From a virus: DNA of 24,320 nucleotides. The translations under genes were made by a program, and so were the position numbers. Location of the stretch: positions 1 to 24,320 of the IMG/VR virus record IMGVR_UViG_3300010354_000634, one strand, 5' to 3'. Of this stretch, positions 93 through 8,895 are shown piece by piece. The notes beneath the pieces were generated by a model. It was not told the origin of the DNA. It searched no databases and saw only the letters and a program-made list of their open reading frames with translations. How positions within the stretch are numbered: the first letter of the stretch is position 1; each line of letters begins with the position of its first letter.

Positions 93-100
93 TATTTATC
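93..100 (-). promoter_or_regulatory. Candidate late promoter (GATAAATA)
   Basis: Minus-strand GATAAATA overlaps the stop codon of the hub gene and lies 24 bp upstream of the ATG at 68. It fits the NATAAATA pattern seen upstream of gp26, the gp54-like gene and the homing endonuclease here. A single 7-8 bp match in AT-rich DNA is weak evidence. Confidence 0.35.
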
Positions 101-1406
101 ACATTTTCATTGGTTTTCTTCCATAAGCCTCACGAATCAATTCTAATGAGGTAAAACATTGTTGCTGTGGGTCTATTCTATGGCATAAACTTGAAATTAA
201 ATATATTCCACTAATTCTCGGATCATAAGTTGGATTTGGTTTAGTTGATTGTTCTGGAAAATCACAATAAATTAATTGTCCTGCTTCTAAACTAAAATCT
301 CCAGCAATAGTAATATTAAGTTTTACTGTAAATGCTTGATTATATCTAGATGATGATGCAGAAAGATAATCTTCTTTAATAGTATCTAATTCTTTTGACT
401 GCTCAACTGGTTTAAGATTTCCAATTGATTTTGATCCAGTAAAAAATCTGGATGGATTGGAAATAAAATCTTGATTTAAATTTTTTCCAAATTCAGATGC
501 CAATGAAGATACTGATGATAATTGAGATCCAATATCTAAAGGATTACAATTATAAACACTTTCTTGAGTACTGAATAAATTTACAGAAGAATTAAAAGTA
601 CCCATTTGAAGTTGATTCTTAAAATCAGAATCATCAACTACTTGAGAACTTAATATTTTTCCAGTATATCCTGGTGGGGGATCTGAAACTGTATTATTTT
701 CGATATATTTTTTTGTATATTCTTGTTCAAATAACCCATCAATAGATTTAAATCTATAACCACTTTTAGTTTCAAAGAAAAAGTACCCAGCAATCAATCC
801 AAGAGCACTTGTTCCTTCTTTAATTGATTGTGATGCTAACCACATAATAAAATAGAAAGGTTTTTTGATAGTTGCAATAAATGACCTTTCATTTTTAGTT
901 GGTTCAATATCTATTTTCTTAGGTGTTTTTAATCCCTCATCTCCAGTTTTAATAATTTTAGTTACTGAATCTGAAATTTTTCCGTCATATCTTTTCTTTA
1001 TTCTAACACTTTCATTCAATAAAAATTCTTTTGATACTAATTCAATAATTTCAAATTCTCTTAGTTTATCATTACCTTTATCTCTTGCACCAATATACAA
1101 AGCAGTATCATCTGTCTTAAAAGATATCTTTTGTTTCAAAGCATCTTCAATTTCAATATAAACTTTTTCACCACGACTAATTTTTATTTTATTTGATGCA
1201 GTAATATTTCCGCCAGTTCCATCATCTCCACTAACTGCATTTCCAGTATCTACAAAAGCAATTGACATTCTCACAGTTTCGGAAAGAATATTTTCATAAT
1301 AATAAAGTTCAGCAATACCTCCATTAAACGCAAGAGGTTTACCTCCAGCATTAGGAAATATTTCAAATATAGGAACATTACTGCTATTGAGTTCGTTTAA
1401 AGACAT
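99..1406 (-). CDS. Baseplate hub protein, gp27-like
   Basis: 435 residues, acting in the virion tail. The N-terminal half is beta-rich and reads like the first hub domain of gp27-type proteins (residues about 30-150, with the segment IIELVSKEFLLNESVRIKKR). The C-terminal part (about 365-425) has the pattern 'GDFSLEAGQLIYCDFPE' followed by 'GIYLISSLCHRI', typical of hub proteins that form the ring above the central spike. T4 gp27 is of similar length (391 residues). The gene starts one base after the stop of the 1090-residue hydrolase gene, in the tail operon led by gp26 and gp51, which agrees with a hub role. The assignment rests on pattern and gene order rather than a diagnostic motif; 'virion structural protein' is the safe call. 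Confidence 0.65.
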   Translation of the reverse strand: MSLNELNSSNVPIFEIFPNAGGKPLAFNGGIAELYYYENILSETVRMSIAFVDTGNAVSGDDGTGGNITASNKIKISRGEKVYIEIEDALKQKISFKTDDTALYIGARDKGNDKLREFEIIELVSKEFLLNESVRIKKRYDGKISDSVTKIIKTGDEGLKTPKKIDIEPTKNERSFIATIKKPFYFIMWLASQSIKEGTSALGLIAGYFFFETKSGYRFKSIDGLFEQEYTKKYIENNTVSDPPPGYTGKILSSQVVDDSDFKNQLQMGTFNSSVNLFSTQESVYNCNPLDIGSQLSSVSSLASEFGKNLNQDFISNPSRFFTGSKSIGNLKPVEQSKELDTIKEDYLSASSSRYNQAFTVKLNITIAGDFSLEAGQLIYCDFPEQSTKPNPTYDPRISGIYLISSLCHRIDPQQQCFTSLELIREAYGRKPMKM

Positions 1407-1407
1407 A

Positions 1408-4400
1408 TTACAGCATTTCTAGAGTATCGAATAAATGTGAAGTATTATTAATTGATGGTGATGAAGCTACTAGTGTTCTTCTATCTATAACAGTTGTACC
1501 TCCCATATCACTATCACTACTATCATCTATTATTACAAGTAACTCTTCATCTTTCTCATAAGAAGCATATTTGGTCAAAGAATCAATAATTCCAGGAACA
1601 TTCTTTTGTAGTGATGTTCTATCATTAATTTTATAGTTAAGAATATCCAGCAATCCAGGTGTAAATTTTTCAACGGTTTTATATGAACCAGAATCAATTA
1701 CATATTCCTTACCCTTTTCTCCAATCAAAGCCATATGAGGTCCATCTAAAGTTTCTCCACCTTTTTCATATGCAACGTGAACGTGGTCATAATGAATAGC
1801 ATTTGTCCCATTTCCACCACCAGCCCACTTAGATTTTGTAACTGGACCCCAAGTAGTTAAAGGAACTTTTTTGCCCTTCTTAACTCCAAATCCTAAAGGA
1901 GTATAAATTAATTCTTTTAATTTTGATCCATAGTTTTCATAAACATGTTTTGCAAATGCTAATTGTTGAGGAGTGCCTAATCCAACTCCATCATTTGAAT
2001 AGTCTCTTGCTCTATCAACACCGTGCCATCCACGAGATCCTTGTCTATATCCAGAGTATAAAGATAATCCAAATTTTTTAGCTATAGGGTTAAAATCATC
2101 TACGGATCTAACAGATTTAGATCCTATTTTTTCATCTTTTCCACTATAACTTTTATTCTCAGATTTTACACTTTCAGATTTTGCACGTTCTCGTGCAACT
2201 CCAAGTTCTTTATTATAAAGTGTTATGAGTTTATCTGGATTCTTATATGCCTGCCCATAATAACTCTTACCACCTTTTGGCGAATATGGAATAGATGCCC
2301 AAATAGGTGCTAATTTATCAAGAACTTTTGTTGTCAGTCCATTTTTTTTAAGCATCTCAGTGGTAACACCAGCCCTTTCAATTTCTTTAATGGCCATTTT
2401 ATCTTGATTAGCAGGACTGAATAAATCATTACCACGTAATCCTGCCTGCTTTGCAAAATGATCCCTTAAATCTTTGAACTGATATCTACCAACAACTGCA
2501 GATCCAGTGGCTTTAGTTTTGCCTGCCCTCATAAATGATGTCTGCAAATCATGAACTTGTTGTATAGTTTGAGTTGTTAAATCAGTTGGTCCATGTATTT
2601 GATATCCTGCCCAAGTACTATATCCAGGTGGACCAGTTGCTCCCCCACTATTTTTACTAGTTCCTTCAGCATAAGCAAGAACTTCCAAAAGGGCTCTCAT
2701 TTCTGGAGTGCCGTATTGTGATCCTCCACCACCCCCACCTCCACCTCCACCACCTTCATCTACTCCTGCTTCAGTACCCTTTTGAATATTTTCTTGAGTC
2801 ATCTCTTCTCTACCAACAGGTCTTTGTAGAGACAATTCTCTAGATAAATTTCTAAGTGTTGCGTTCACTCCAGTAGAAGTAGAATCTTCAATAGATTTTG
2901 CTATAACATCAGTATAATCTTCGCCCGCAAAAAACTCACGAACATCAACTTCTCCACCACCAGCAAATCCAAGTGTTCCTGTTTGGAATGTTGTATTAAT
3001 CCAACCATTTAAACCCTTTCCCGCATTTTTATAATCTAACTTATCGGGTCTCTGCCCTAACACTGTCTTAATTGCAAGAGTAAAGAATGGTCCAAAGAAA
3101 TCAGATCTTCCTAGAATATCATTACTTTTAACTAAAAATTCTTGTGGATTTGAAACTTTACCCTTTAACTTTTCTGGTTCAGGTTGTGTTTGTGTTTGTT
3201 GTTCAGATTGTTTATTTTGTCCAAATAATCCTCCCAACCAACCAAGAAATCCTTTTGGTTTTTCTGGATTTGGGAAGACCTTTTGAACCTTATCTTCACC
3301 ACCAACAGAAAGACCGGGTTTTAATTTTCTAGGAACAATAGATAAAGATCTTTTTTGTTTCTTTTTCTTTATGCTTCTTCTTGGAGAACTTTTTGTTGAA
3401 GGTCTCCCACCTTCAGCAGCCTTTACAGTTTTACCACCTTTTGACTGAGGTTTTTTACCAGTAAAGAACATATCATATAATGCTCCGCCAATTGCATCCC
3501 CAGCAATTCCACCAATCAATCCTCCAATAAAATTACCAGCAACTGGAACAACAGTTCCTGCTGCGGCACCAATAGCAGCAAGAATTCCTGCACCTATTGC
3601 TCTAAATGCTGCTCTACCTGGATTTTCTCCCAGAGCAACAGATAACCCAAAATCAATTAAAGCGCCAATAACGGGGAGTGGAATTCTTTTTAGAAATGGT
3701 CTTACTGAAGAAAGTAATGCTTTTCCTTTAAGTGCCCCACCAGATGTAGTTACTGTAGGTCTTTGTCTAAGTGGATTTCTTATATCTGGTCTACCAGCAG
3801 TTCTACCACCAGAGGTAGTTACTGTAGGTCTTTGTCTAAGTGGATTTCTTATATCTGGTCTACCAGCAGTTCTACCACCAGATGTGGTTATTGAAGGTTT
3901 TCCTCCAGCAATAGATCCAGTTTTTGGAACATTTCCACCTTTACCTTTACTTAACCCACCAGATCCTGCAGCAACCATTCCGGCGATAATGGCAAGATTT
4001 AAAAACTTATTCAGTAATCCAGAAAGTTGATCAAATTTGTTTACACCATCTTCACCAAAAATATTTTTGATAAACCCACGACTAGAATCATATGCTTTAT
4101 ATCCCCAATCAATAAATGTTACTAATCCATCCAATAATTTTCCACCAGTATCAATAATAAAATCACTAACTTTTATGATAACTGGAAGTATTTTTAAAAG
4201 TTGTGGAAGAAAATCAAGTAATCTAACCGCAATAAATCCTAGAAAAGTTTTAAAAATAAAATTCTTAATCCTATCAAATAAACTCAATTTTGGTAGTTCT
4301 GGTAATTTAATACCTTCCACTTTTGGATCTTTTTTCTTTTCTAATTCTTTTTCTCTTTTTTTAAACTTATCATTTTCAGATTGTAATCTAGAAATTTTAG

Positions 4401-4680
4401 ATCTTTTTAATTTAAGTAAATATGATTGATTTAAAAGTTTATCAACTTTAATAACCTTATCTTTTATTACAGAACAGCAATCATTTTTCTTTTCTTGATT
4501 TTGTTTTGAAGAAGTTGATGTAGATGAAAAATCACTAAAAATTCTTTGAGGTTTTGTAATAGAAAAATTTTTAGATTTTGTTTTTGGATTACTACTATTC
4601 AATAACTTATCAGGTTTTACTAAATTACCTTTTGAGGATTTTATTAGTGAAGATTTTGAAAAAGGTATTAATTTAGACAT
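1408..4680 (-). CDS. Large tail/baseplate protein with lytic transglycosylase and peptidase-like domains (functional analogue of gp5)
   Basis: 1090 residues. In order: a charged N terminus with a Cys-Cys pair (68-69) and a Lys/Glu-rich coiled-coil stretch; amphipathic helices at about 137-170; a 23-residue tandem repeat; a Gly/Ala-rich 'glycine zipper' at about 361-400; a basic linker; an 11-Gly run near 645; then a domain at about 661-825 resembling lambda endolysin R, with AYAEGT (putative catalytic Glu672), VVGRYQF and APIWASIPY. A last domain at about 860-975 has HGVDRARDY and HYDHVHV, like ARB_07466/VanY-type peptidases. T4 gp5 also carries a muramidase in the baseplate spike, so local digestion of peptidoglycan during DNA entry is inferred. 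The gene lies 6 bp after the 1102-residue structural gene. The transglycosylase call is strong; the peptidase call is moderate. Confidence 0.8.
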   Translation of the reverse strand: MSKLIPFSKSSLIKSSKGNLVKPDKLLNSSNPKTKSKNFSITKPQRIFSDFSSTSTSSKQNQEKKNDCCSVIKDKVIKVDKLLNQSYLLKLKRSKISRLQSENDKFKKREKELEKKKDPKVEGIKLPELPKLSLFDRIKNFIFKTFLGFIAVRLLDFLPQLLKILPVIIKVSDFIIDTGGKLLDGLVTFIDWGYKAYDSSRGFIKNIFGEDGVNKFDQLSGLLNKFLNLAIIAGMVAAGSGGLSKGKGGNVPKTGSIAGGKPSITTSGGRTAGRPDIRNPLRQRPTVTTSGGRTAGRPDIRNPLRQRPTVTTSGGALKGKALLSSVRPFLKRIPLPVIGALIDFGLSVALGENPGRAAFRAIGAGILAAIGAAAGTVVPVAGNFIGGLIGGIAGDAIGGALYDMFFTGKKPQSKGGKTVKAAEGGRPSTKSSPRRSIKKKKQKRSLSIVPRKLKPGLSVGGEDKVQKVFPNPEKPKGFLGWLGGLFGQNKQSEQQTQTQPEPEKLKGKVSNPQEFLVKSNDILGRSDFFGPFFTLAIKTVLGQRPDKLDYKNAGKGLNGWINTTFQTGTLGFAGGGEVDVREFFAGEDYTDVIAKSIEDSTSTGVNATLRNLSRELSLQRPVGREEMTQENIQKGTEAGVDEGGGGGGGGGGGSQYGTPEMRALLEVLAYAEGTSKNSGGATGPPGYSTWAGYQIHGPTDLTTQTIQQVHDLQTSFMRAGKTKATGSAVVGRYQFKDLRDHFAKQAGLRGNDLFSPANQDKMAIKEIERAGVTTEMLKKNGLTTKVLDKLAPIWASIPYSPKGGKSYYGQAYKNPDKLITLYNKELGVARERAKSESVKSENKSYSGKDEKIGSKSVRSVDDFNPIAKKFGLSLYSGYRQGSRGWHGVDRARDYSNDGVGLGTPQQLAFAKHVYENYGSKLKELIYTPLGFGVKKGKKVPLTTWGPVTKSKWAGGGNGTNAIHYDHVHVAYEKGGETLDGPHMALIGEKGKEYVIDSGSYKTVEKFTPGLLDILNYKINDRTSLQKNVPGIIDSLTKYASYEKDEELLVIIDDSSDSDMGGTTVIDRRTLVASSPSINNTSHLFDTLEML
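3737..3890 (-). repeat. 69-bp in-frame tandem repeat (2 full copies plus a partial third)
   Basis: Copies begin at 3737 and 3806 with a partial third from 3875. They encode a 23-residue unit containing SGGRTAGRPDIRNPLRQRP. The two full copies differ at about one base (gat/gag near 3745 and 3814), so the duplication is recent or kept uniform by recombination. The repeat lies in the basic linker before the glycine-zipper region. Confidence 0.95.
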
Positions 4681-7600: not shown

Positions 7601-7995
7601 TGATAAAAGAATTTTTCTGTTGATAATTTTCCTTTTGTGGATTTTACAATTGCACCAGTTTTTGGAAAGTTGCCATCCTTATCTTTTGGTGGTCCTCCGG
7701 ATGGATCTTTTCTTGAAGATTGTGGAGTTGCTCCAGAAACTTTTACTTTTTTTTGTTTAATCTTAACTCTTTTATTTGTTCTATCTTTTATTTTCCATAC
7801 TCTCTTAAGTTCTTCCTCTAAAAGATTTTGTTCCTCTATAGGAAGTTGATTCCCAACTAAACGATGAGAAGCAAGTTTCTTTTTAATTCTTTCGAAGTAA
7901 GTCTGGTAATCAATTTCAGTTCCAGATTCTAATCTAAGTAATCTAAGAATTACTTCATTGATATTCTCTGTAGCAACTCCTTGATTACCAGCCAT
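4687..7995 (-). CDS. Large virion structural protein, tape-measure-like candidate
   Basis: 1102 residues from the ATG at 7995. An in-frame ATG at 8034 would overlap gp51 by 50 bp, so the shorter form with 11 bp overlap is preferred. The N-terminal part is charged, with a Cys-Cys pair at 158-159 and a coiled-coil segment. Two hydrophobic helical segments follow at about 225-285 (FGRILVKLINWI; WWPALLGGYVLFG). A 'DGEFVMSVGAVNKYGVDTL' motif lies near 425-445. After it come a Gly-rich region, a triplicated 18-residue repeat, a globular stretch and a basic, Gln-rich tail carrying two EAKRPWWDKMG motifs. The order gp26-gp51-this gene matches the T4 region that encodes hub and tape measure (gp27-gp28-gp29), so a tape-measure role is plausible but inferred. 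Structural role likely; exact role unknown. Confidence 0.75.
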   Translation of the reverse strand: MAGNQGVATENINEVILRLLRLESGTEIDYQTYFERIKKKLASHRLVGNQLPIEEQNLLEEELKRVWKIKDRTNKRVKIKQKKVKVSGATPQSSRKDPSGGPPKDKDGNFPKTGAIVKSTKGKLSTEKFFYQPKVEKVNVRDITEKTTKVTKQKKPTCCEQIGKKLDSILKTLTNINDFDKKQSEKERKNRETQSRQEREKSLETSPFSGIKKAFAAITKPFQSIFDRIIKYITTIIFGRILVKLINWIADPKNQGKIKSLIRFFKDWWPALLGGYVLFGTTFGKLVRSTTGIVGRFIFQIGKVAIPQLLKFIKTPIGAGIALFTAGATVPAIFPGTVNEKERETKKAPGTAEDKIRQLQQQKANLNLFEKLQNKGSEIDEQISFIQSGKTKAYGFSSGGFASGFNLSSGVVKGKKGTDKVPAMLTDGEFVMSVGAVNKYGVDTLEAMNASGGGTNNPTITNGVTYAATGGRIGSGDYGGSNKDPLYQVDKFFDNFFGRDIDIRDPRTWPPKGSGGGYDQGNRRGGGGSNTSGLLPEIGREINRAKELAGQGINSAGREINRAKELAGQGINSAGREINRAKELAGDTYNRIINDPYVKQGIDAAKQVYNKSAKFVGGLKDGAVNYGIKEGYLSKRGRFEGAAKSQATNFLSDMLPNLPGISTANKALTENYLTKIGMGRSTRNINKKGENFTSAFYGGASGIDRAYNVGQLQVNKMSNESRAYYLKKVKAGLAAGTLKSGDMIDAYDLDSKNPIRREQGTVRFFVGPDGSPYLMDTYGFDPQKGGKGKNQINLGSAQAEYDKQLKTFQDDSKGIKSLGWWAKKFNLKPLADATEGGPKVQFALSLRNKIFGYDPEREAMSKLAMRFKTKVQVDDLRKYMKPEEIKMLLSLGKEQLQSNQRAALNEANRRNEKDVKRQKEEQKKALNQKALEAKRPWWDKMGVFGGSSAAIQRQQRKQAEDFANSGGYGRYAPSSLPKNKNQPYGPGGDPRGTGRGQSQRTTNQQRLEAKRPWWDKMGAFGGGSRIAQQQAKKAQIAKAKPVSKAPPGPVKSNGPKTVVVKTNSSSRRSSGSSRQTTQNVPNFSPKHPKPVVKSVSAYGIYR
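4941..5202 (-). repeat. Dispersed 34-bp direct repeat (4941-4974 and 5169-5202)
   Basis: The two 34-bp stretches are identical and encode the same EAKRPWWDKMG peptide, 228 bp apart, near the C terminus of the large structural protein. Neighbouring sequence (Gln/Lys-rich, FGG motif) is also similar, so a longer segment probably duplicated and diverged. Confidence 0.85.
6242..6382 (-). repeat. 54-bp in-frame tandem repeat (2 full copies plus a partial third)
   Basis: Copies start at 6242, 6296 and 6350 and are nearly identical. They encode an 18-residue unit with INRAKELAGQGINSAGRE periodicity, predicted to be an amphipathic helix. Unit number probably varies between related phages. Confidence 0.95.
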
Positions 7996-8173
7996 TACTT
8001 TGTTGGTTTTGTTTTTGCTTTTGTTCTTCTTCATGTAAATGTTGCTTCAGCAACTCAACATAAACATCCCTCTCCCAAGGAATCATATTTTCAATTTCAG
8101 TTAATGAATATTTATGATACTGCATCAAAGAAAAATTTAACCTGAAGTAATTCTCCAGGTCCATATGACACAT
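7985..8173 (-). CDS. 51: Baseplate hub assembly protein, gp51-like
   Basis: 62 residues, starting 2 bp after the gp26 stop. The core pattern HKYSLTEIENMIPWERDVYVELL, followed by a charged Glu/Gln/Lys-rich tail, is the one I associate with the short gp51-like 'baseplate hub assembly catalyst' of cyanomyophages, which is much shorter than T4 gp51. Its place directly after gp26 supports this. A second in-frame ATG at codon 4 is possible. The protein is thought to help assemble the hub rather than to remain in the virion; that is known for T4 and inferred here. Confidence 0.65.
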   Translation of the reverse strand: MCHMDLENYFRLNFSLMQYHKYSLTEIENMIPWERDVYVELLKQHLHEEEQKQKQNQQSNGW

Positions 8174-8175
8174 TC

Positions 8176-8895
8176 CTATGCGAAAAAACTTGATAACCCT
8201 TCCAAAACAACTTCACTTTCAACATTTGTCTTTGGATTTACTACTTTAATAGTATGAGAAAGTTTAGGCATAGTCTCAAAGAACTTTTCAATTTGCTTAA
8301 ATTGAGTTGTATTCATTTGATCAAGAAATTCCATAAGTTCCTTTTTGGTCACATCAGCAGCAACCCAAACTTCATCTTCATTGTAAATCTTATCAACACA
8401 AGATGCAATCAATTCAAATGATTGATCCATTGCATTATTTGCAGAAAGATCAAAGTTATTTTTGATAAATTGATCTAATGATGGATACTTCATTTCCATC
8501 ATTAAATTGTCATCTAACTTTATTTTATTAGTATGATCTGGATTTCTTTGAACACCAATATCATCTACATTGATTTTAATTTCAACGCTAGTCTCTTCAT
8601 CATCTGGACAAATTACATTAACTTCAATTTCTTCTCCTACGGATTTTGCACGAATATTTAAGAAAAGATATTCAATATCAAATGTAGGAAGTGATTCTAC
8701 TTTAATTCCTTTGGTCTCTACACAATTTTTAATTACAGTTTTAATTGCAGTAGTAATCTGTTTAGTATCTTCTGATTCTAATGCGATAACTAAAAGTTTT
8801 TCTTCTTTAACTAGAAAAGGTCTATATCTAATAGTTTCGCCAGTAGAAGGTAATTTTAGATCGTAAGATGGTGTGGCAATTTTTGGTAAAGGCAT
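8176..8895 (-). CDS. 26: Baseplate hub subunit gp26
   Basis: 239 residues with the features of the T4 gp26 baseplate family: an N-terminal segment PKIATPSYDLKLPSTGETIRYRPF, then FLVKEEKLLVIALES and, at about 70-100, FDIEYLFLNIRAKSVGE followed by a short beta domain. T4 gp26 (208 residues) is part of the baseplate hub. This is the first gene of the minus-strand tail operon, with a CATAAATA late promoter about 30 bp upstream and a leader shared with the gene at 20167-20739. AGGA five bases before the ATG may serve as ribosome binding site. A confident call. Confidence 0.88.
   Translation of the reverse strand: MPLPKIATPSYDLKLPSTGETIRYRPFLVKEEKLLVIALESEDTKQITTAIKTVIKNCVETKGIKVESLPTFDIEYLFLNIRAKSVGEEIEVNVICPDDEETSVEIKINVDDIGVQRNPDHTNKIKLDDNLMMEMKYPSLDQFIKNNFDLSANNAMDQSFELIASCVDKIYNEDEVWVAADVTKKELMEFLDQMNTTQFKQIEKFFETMPKLSHTIKVVNPKTNVESEVVLEGLSSFFA

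Follow-up and report, generated by a model that had tools for sequence, protein, structure and literature searches.

A predicted two-enzyme, exchangeable wall-hydrolase cassette in a tape-measure-like tail protein of a T4-like cyanomyovirus

Tail proteins carrying several enzymes are already known from Anabaena phage A-1(L), whose recombinant hub endoglucanase and peptidase domains lysed Anabaena (PMC10966104), and hydrolase motifs are likewise known from mycobacteriophage tape measures, where motif 3 of the TM4 tape measure hydrolyses peptidoglycan and aids infection (PMC1796659). That motif gave its name to the catalytic domain (MT3) of the pneumococcal enzyme VldE, which cuts the bond between L-Ala and D-Glu and holds zinc on H301, D308 and H375, with an H373-x-H375 (HxH) motif and H370 as the proposed base (PMC11667670). 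In the same enzyme, E368 closes a multi-zinc latent state, and an E368A variant keeps activity (PMC11667670).

Here we analyze a viral DNA stretch of 24,320 bases (the window), whose genes include those for the neck and baseplate of a T4-like cyanomyovirus. We consider it likely that one of its products, P0001, is a cyanomyovirus tape-measure-like protein delivering a lambda-type transglycosylase and a VldE-type endopeptidase from an exchangeable cassette. What is new with respect to the systems above is a two-position exchange on a fixed chassis, together with an apparent shift of wall cutting away from gp5; neither is described in the literature searched, which leaves out most subscription journals.

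Gene context and tail-protein character of P0001

The window also encodes gp32, gp59, DUF1825, PhoH and ThyX, and its gp26 shares 78% identity with the gp26 of Synechococcus phage SynMITS9220M01. P0001 is the second of two tape-measure-like genes situated between gp26/gp51 and a gp27-like gene (Table 1). The corresponding order in S-SM2 and S-T4 is gp26, a small ORF, a tape-measure-like gene, the P0001 counterpart, a gp27-like gene and a gene at gp5's place; isolates present gp26, gp51, two successive tape-measure-like genes, a gp27-like gene and gp5, and related loci also contain gp5 homologs.

Table 1. Coordinates in the window of P0001, its parts and the neighboring genes
Feature	Coordinates	Strand	Basis
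P0001, 1090-aa tape-measure-like tail protein with two predicted wall-hydrolase domains	1408..4680	-	ORF call; position as in S-SM2 and S-T4
P0002, gp27-like tail protein	99..1406	-	by position (PHROG 350)
P0003, first tape-measure-like protein, 1115 aa	4687..8034	-	N-terminal part paralogous to that of P0001
Small ORF, 62 aa, where cyanophages have gp51	7985..8173	-	position only
gp26 baseplate hub assembly protein	8176..8895	-	PF12322, E=8e-77
Conserved N-terminal chassis, residues 1-642	2755..4680	-	relatives ~30-62% identical; weak tape measure family matches
11-glycine linker, residues 643-653	2722..2754	-	long run peculiar to this phage
Cassette position 1, predicted lambda-lysozyme-like lytic transglycosylase fold, residues about 656-831	2188..2715	-	1am7 match and model
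E672 codon, putative catalytic Glu	2665..2667	-	invariant in 19 relatives
Cassette position 2, predicted VldE/TM4-motif-3-like zinc L,D-endopeptidase fold (LAS clan), residues about 853-971	1768..2124	-	sequence, profile, model
Segment from H886 to D893, residues aligned with zinc ligands H301 and D308 of VldE	2002..2025	-	alignment
H963, H966 and H968, aligned with H370 (proposed base), H373 and H375 (zinc ligand) of VldE	1777..1794	-	alignment
Conserved C-terminal tail closing the cassette (GGETLDGPHMALIGEKGKEYVID), residues 972-1090	1411..1767	-	profile of 971-1062

An earlier note, made from the sequence alone, had placed two cell-wall-cutting domains at positions 1408-2720 behind an 11-glycine linker. 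These coordinates are right, corresponding to residues 654-1090 of the minus-strand ORF at 1408..4680, and the glycine run is found at residues 643-653. Junction runs of at least five glycines occur in just 4 of 78 relatives; the length of the run is therefore a peculiarity of this phage and carries little weight. The chassis upstream of it contains hydrophobic segments at about residues 150-169, 219-244 and 333-380, and 126 ORFs match both the N-terminal part and the profile of the C-terminal tail (residues 971-1062). Residues 265-285 are repeated exactly at residues 288-308 (TTSGGRTAGRPDIRNPLRQRP; nucleotides 3757-3888).

Given the gene order, the paralogy with P0003, the hydrophobic segments and weak matches to PHROG tape measure families (E-values of 1.7e-4 and 2.4e-3), P0001 looks like a tape-measure-like tail protein and not like gp5. 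The identification of P0001 as T4 gp5, implicit in the earlier note's comparison with gp5, was rejected because relatives carry gp5 as a separate gene downstream of the gp27-like gene; the note's description of P0001 as a baseplate protein is not supported either. Furthermore, Pfam found neither Gp5_OB nor the C-terminal repeats of the beta-helix in P0001, whereas the T4 gp5 control gave both, together with Phage_lysozyme. In cyanophage-type gp5 orthologs, Pfam recognized Gp5_OB in 22 of 29 sequences and Phage_lysozyme in none. T4-type lysozyme (PF00959) is found instead at the gene position of P0001 in ACG-2014f, S-ShM2, P-RSM4, S-N03, S-B68 and S-CREM2, partnered by M23 in ACG-2014f, by a C39-like peptidase in S-ShM2 and by a weak M15 match in P-RSM4. 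The simplest reading would be that the gene encoding P0001 has taken over wall cutting from the spike. The contrast with T4, which the earlier note drew as one lysozyme domain in gp5 against two activities here, is instead that the cutting function apparently resides in another gene, gp5 orthologs having no detectable lysozyme.

The lengths of counterpart proteins can be compared with tail length at two points only: S-CREM2 (1565 and 1456 aa; 418 nm) and S-N03 (933 and 722 aa; 138 nm). The S-CREM2 tail exceeds the helix span of either of its two proteins alone. Both points fit the idea of a tape measure and do not amount to proof of it.

An unlikely alternative is that P0001 acts as an endolysin, lysing the host from inside, and that only its gene lies among tail genes. 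This would agree with the RefSeq label of cyanophage orthologs ('endolysin'), with the presence of a lambda-type domain, typical of endolysins, and with the decision of the S-CREM2 authors to file the counterparts ORF208 and ORF209 as lysis proteins (PMC10665884). Purified virions nonetheless yielded 73 and 71 peptides of these two proteins (PMC10665884), counts that resemble those of structural proteins. Also against this alternative, the predicted enzymes are joined to some 590-650 residues of chassis that include hydrophobic segments, and the gene adjoins both its tape-measure-like paralog and gp26/gp27/gp5. What the S-CREM2 counterparts have in common with P0001 is position and enzyme content, their N-terminal parts giving no match to the P0001 chassis profile. 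In S-CREM2 (L249 12937-22008), whose tail is the longest of any cyanomyovirus, the first protein carries a GH19 chitinase-like domain and the second a T4-type lysozyme.

Two predicted wall-hydrolase domains

Scans of P0001 with Pfam and NCBIfam recognized neither enzyme domain, indicating that routine annotation misses both, and the domains were traced by phmmer, profiles and structure. In a sequence search, residues 661-831 matched lambda lysozyme (1am7) with an E-value of 2.4e-7. The first domain, modeled alone from a clean alignment, superposed on 1am7 with a Z of 15.2 (149 residues aligned, rmsd 3.0) and on the lysozyme domain of the A-1(L) hub (8kea) with a Z of 14.3. E672 is the Glu ending the first helix, at the catalytic-Glu position of the lambda lysozyme (gpR) family, and it is present in 19 of 19 relatives. 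By its fold and catalytic Glu, domain 1 is a putative lytic transglycosylase of the lambda lysozyme (gpR) type.

The second domain was matched to the catalytic domain of pneumococcal VldE (9flh) over residues 864-970, with an E-value of 1e-4 as a single sequence and of 3.9e-7 with an eight-member profile. The corresponding model, in whose underlying alignment ten lambda-type fragments were misplaced over domain 2, has a pLDDT above 90 across most of the domain and superposed on VldE (9flm) with a Z of 9.6 (102 residues, rmsd 3.0) and also on 1lbu and hedgehog, with a Z of 4-5. The VldE zinc ligands H301, D308 and H375 align with H886, D893 and H968, the HxH motif corresponds to H966-x-H968, and eight sequences share the H...D...HxxHxH residues without exception. 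At the position of the latch residue E368, P0001 has A961, which is compatible with membership in the VldE family given that VldE E368A is still active. The same stretch (residues 851-981) is also matched by mycobacteriophage tape measures and by the putative tape measure of cyanophage S-CBWM1. Domain 2 is a predicted L,D-endopeptidase of the VldE / TM4 motif 3 (MT3) type, in LAS clan MD.

Taken together, the invariance of E672 and of the H...D...HxxHxH residues in relatives places the two-domain match above chance. The central proposal of the earlier note, that one protein of the tail module bears two different wall-cutting domains, is borne out by the structure predictions that it had called for: both folds match hydrolases, the putative metal and catalytic residues are present, and E672, H886, D893, H963, H966 and H968 lie where it had implied. 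Its suggestion that the pair suits the thick, cross-linked wall of cyanobacteria is weakened, because some relatives that infect picocyanobacteria (S-SM2 type, P-TIM68) show a peptidase-like domain alone or no domain.

It is improbable that either domain, or the pair, lacks activity and acts purely in wall binding or as a structural part. The Pfam result would be in keeping with such a role, as would the low identity to characterized enzymes (about 20-30%), but the catalytic Glu is retained without variation, as is every residue corresponding to a zinc, HxH or base position of VldE, and the swaps for other hydrolase folds described below argue for selection on activity.

A two-position cassette in the relatives of P0001

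Among the fetched relatives, the chassis is shared by 66 complete proteins. Across these, the N-terminal part and the C-terminal tail form fixed flanks, and the interval between them spans roughly 240-730 residues, mostly about 300, with content unrelated between relatives. Whole-cassette single-linkage clustering merged everything, and the position-1 and position-2 halves were clustered apart. Position 1 is occupied by lambda-type domains, Phage_lysozyme2 (PF18013), SleB-like cell wall hydrolases (PF07486) or rarer folds. Position 2 holds about seven folds: VldE-like (B), HPEH-type, M23, Amidase_2, CHAP-like, and two His/Asp-rich types named from their sequence, YITGD and QGNSG.

A glycosidase is combined with a peptidase-like family in 62 of the 66 relatives, in 20 pairings. 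When position 2 is limited to families tied by profiles to peptidases or amidases (VldE-like B, HPEH, M23 and Amidase_2), the stricter count is 43/66. By inspection, L049 combines lambda-type and M23 domains with a third domain, raising each count by one; the other exceptions are L064 and L077, with position 2 unrecognized, and one L127 protein, with an SGNH-like domain in position 1. This one-of-each rule leans partly on position-2 families that libraries do not recognize, the peptidase assignment of YITGD, QGNSG and CHAP-like being confirmed by no library searched. The HPEH type keeps H-x6-D and HxxHxH, and profile comparison ties it to the VldE-like type and weakly to hedgehog, a LAS member. 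A separate S-SM2 type (n=13) has a peptidase-like domain only, with no glycosidase recognized.

Several features of individual relatives were also observed. In YITGD (L060 8062-8508, L028 6585-7028), YHDHIAF precedes H-x6-D, the opposite of the VldE-like order, which raises the possibility of a LAS peptidase in circularly permuted form. QGNSG (QGNSGAS...HFHIGPG...H-x9-D) occupies position 2 in L031 (8275-8766), L018 (8143-8637), L039 (8293-8817) and L047 (7794-8378); the S-T4 protein ends in a similar sequence, and the family had no match among PDB sequences. The domain order is reversed in isolates S-RIM8 and S-ShM2. Neither P-TIM68 nor Melnitz has an enzyme at this gene, as judged by Pfam and by eye; Methylophilales phage Melnitz (L250 10752-12977), a member of the Kyanoviridae with a non-cyanobacterial host, has a single tape-measure-like gene with no recognizable wall enzyme. 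L127 (366-6875) carries enzyme cassettes in both tape-measure-like genes. P0003 counterparts with an HxDHVHV or lambda-type domain occur in L069 (2315-5932), L074 (2585-5932) and L071 (2-4918), which suggests possible transfer of cassettes from one paralog to the other.

Comparisons at the DNA level reveal sharp boundaries. L012 and L015 are 94% identical over nucleotides 1-1646 and 90% identical over the last 335, and the cassette between these flanks has no match; in L037 and L039, the flanks are 95% and 92% identical. Such boundaries between near-identical flanks show that the whole cassette was replaced. On the chassis tree, at least 25 changes are needed at position 1 and at least 26 at position 2, below the values of 32.6 and 32.7 obtained with shuffles, which indicates that cassettes are partly inherited and not fully random. 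The five-member clade containing the window presents four contents: lambda-type + B (the window and L006), SleB + B (L008), SleB + HPEH (L009) and amidase + SleB + M23 (L007). A permutation test on 57 relatives detected no pairing preference between the two positions (p=0.24). The cassette is a two-position exchange site, in which the enzymes are replaced separately or together while the chassis and tail are kept. That this exchange is an artefact of chimeric assemblies is very improbable: most relatives are metagenomic contigs, but the positional counterparts in sequenced isolates likewise carry differing enzyme pairs, over 60 contigs read through the junction without a break in frame, and the junctions recur at one place.

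Proposed role and comparison with known systems

For P0001 as a tape-measure-like protein bearing an exchangeable cassette, we infer the following about its enzymatic activity, its presence and location in the virion, the timing of its action and the selective reason for exchange. An infecting particle would introduce the C-terminal cassette into the periplasm, either through the tail tip or at it, and there domain 1 would cut glycan strands and domain 2 the bond between L-Ala and D-Glu of the stem peptide. Both cuts would open a hole for the tube, a job that T4 gives to the lysozyme domain of gp5. Relatives swap the enzymes but nearly always keep one for glycan and one for peptide. As a more general and tentative proposal, to which we would give somewhat less than even chances, wall cutting in many cyanomyoviruses has moved from the gp5 spike to a two-socket cassette that tracks host wall chemistry and helps to set host range.

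The protein is a candidate for the wall breach of T4-like cyanophages, to which no enzyme would be assigned if gp5 truly lacks lysozyme. A swappable module has contents that can be compared with host range, and some 20 natural glycosidase-peptidase pairings on one scaffold would make it possible to test whether the two cuts cooperate. At present, the public labels 'endolysin', 'hypothetical protein' and 'transglycosylase domain-containing' obscure the two-enzyme cassette.

Among described systems, hub protein gp15 of Anabaena phage A-1(L) (8kea; PMC10966104) resembles P0001 in uniting several wall-hydrolase domains, among them a peptidase and one like lambda lysozyme, on a cyanophage tail protein. 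The A-1(L) domains surround the hub barrel, whereas those of P0001 lie close to the C-terminal end of a tape-measure-like protein, the gp27-like gene being a separate neighbor, and the predicted second enzyme of P0001 has a VldE-type fold, unlike the A-1(L) hub. Motif 3 of the TM4 tape measure (PMC1796659) belongs to the same predicted domain family as position 2 of P0001, but TM4 is a mycobacterial siphovirus with a single embedded motif and P0001 carries a two-position cassette. The likeness to the T4 gp5 tail lysozyme lies in the proposed opening of peptidoglycan during tail penetration; T4 gp5 combines OB and lysozyme domains, whereas P0001 matches neither OB nor beta-helix and the separate gp5 of its relatives shows no lysozyme domain. 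Streptococcus pneumoniae VldE (9flh-9fln; PMC11667670) matches domain 2 in predicted fold and in its zinc, HxH and base positions, and differs in being a cellular enzyme with E368 where the phage protein has A961. Finally, actinobacterial Sle1-type effectors (PMC13277306) share with P0001 a tape-measure-related chassis and exchangeable functional domains, but they are effectors of contractile injection systems, whereas P0001 is a phage protein with predicted wall enzymes.
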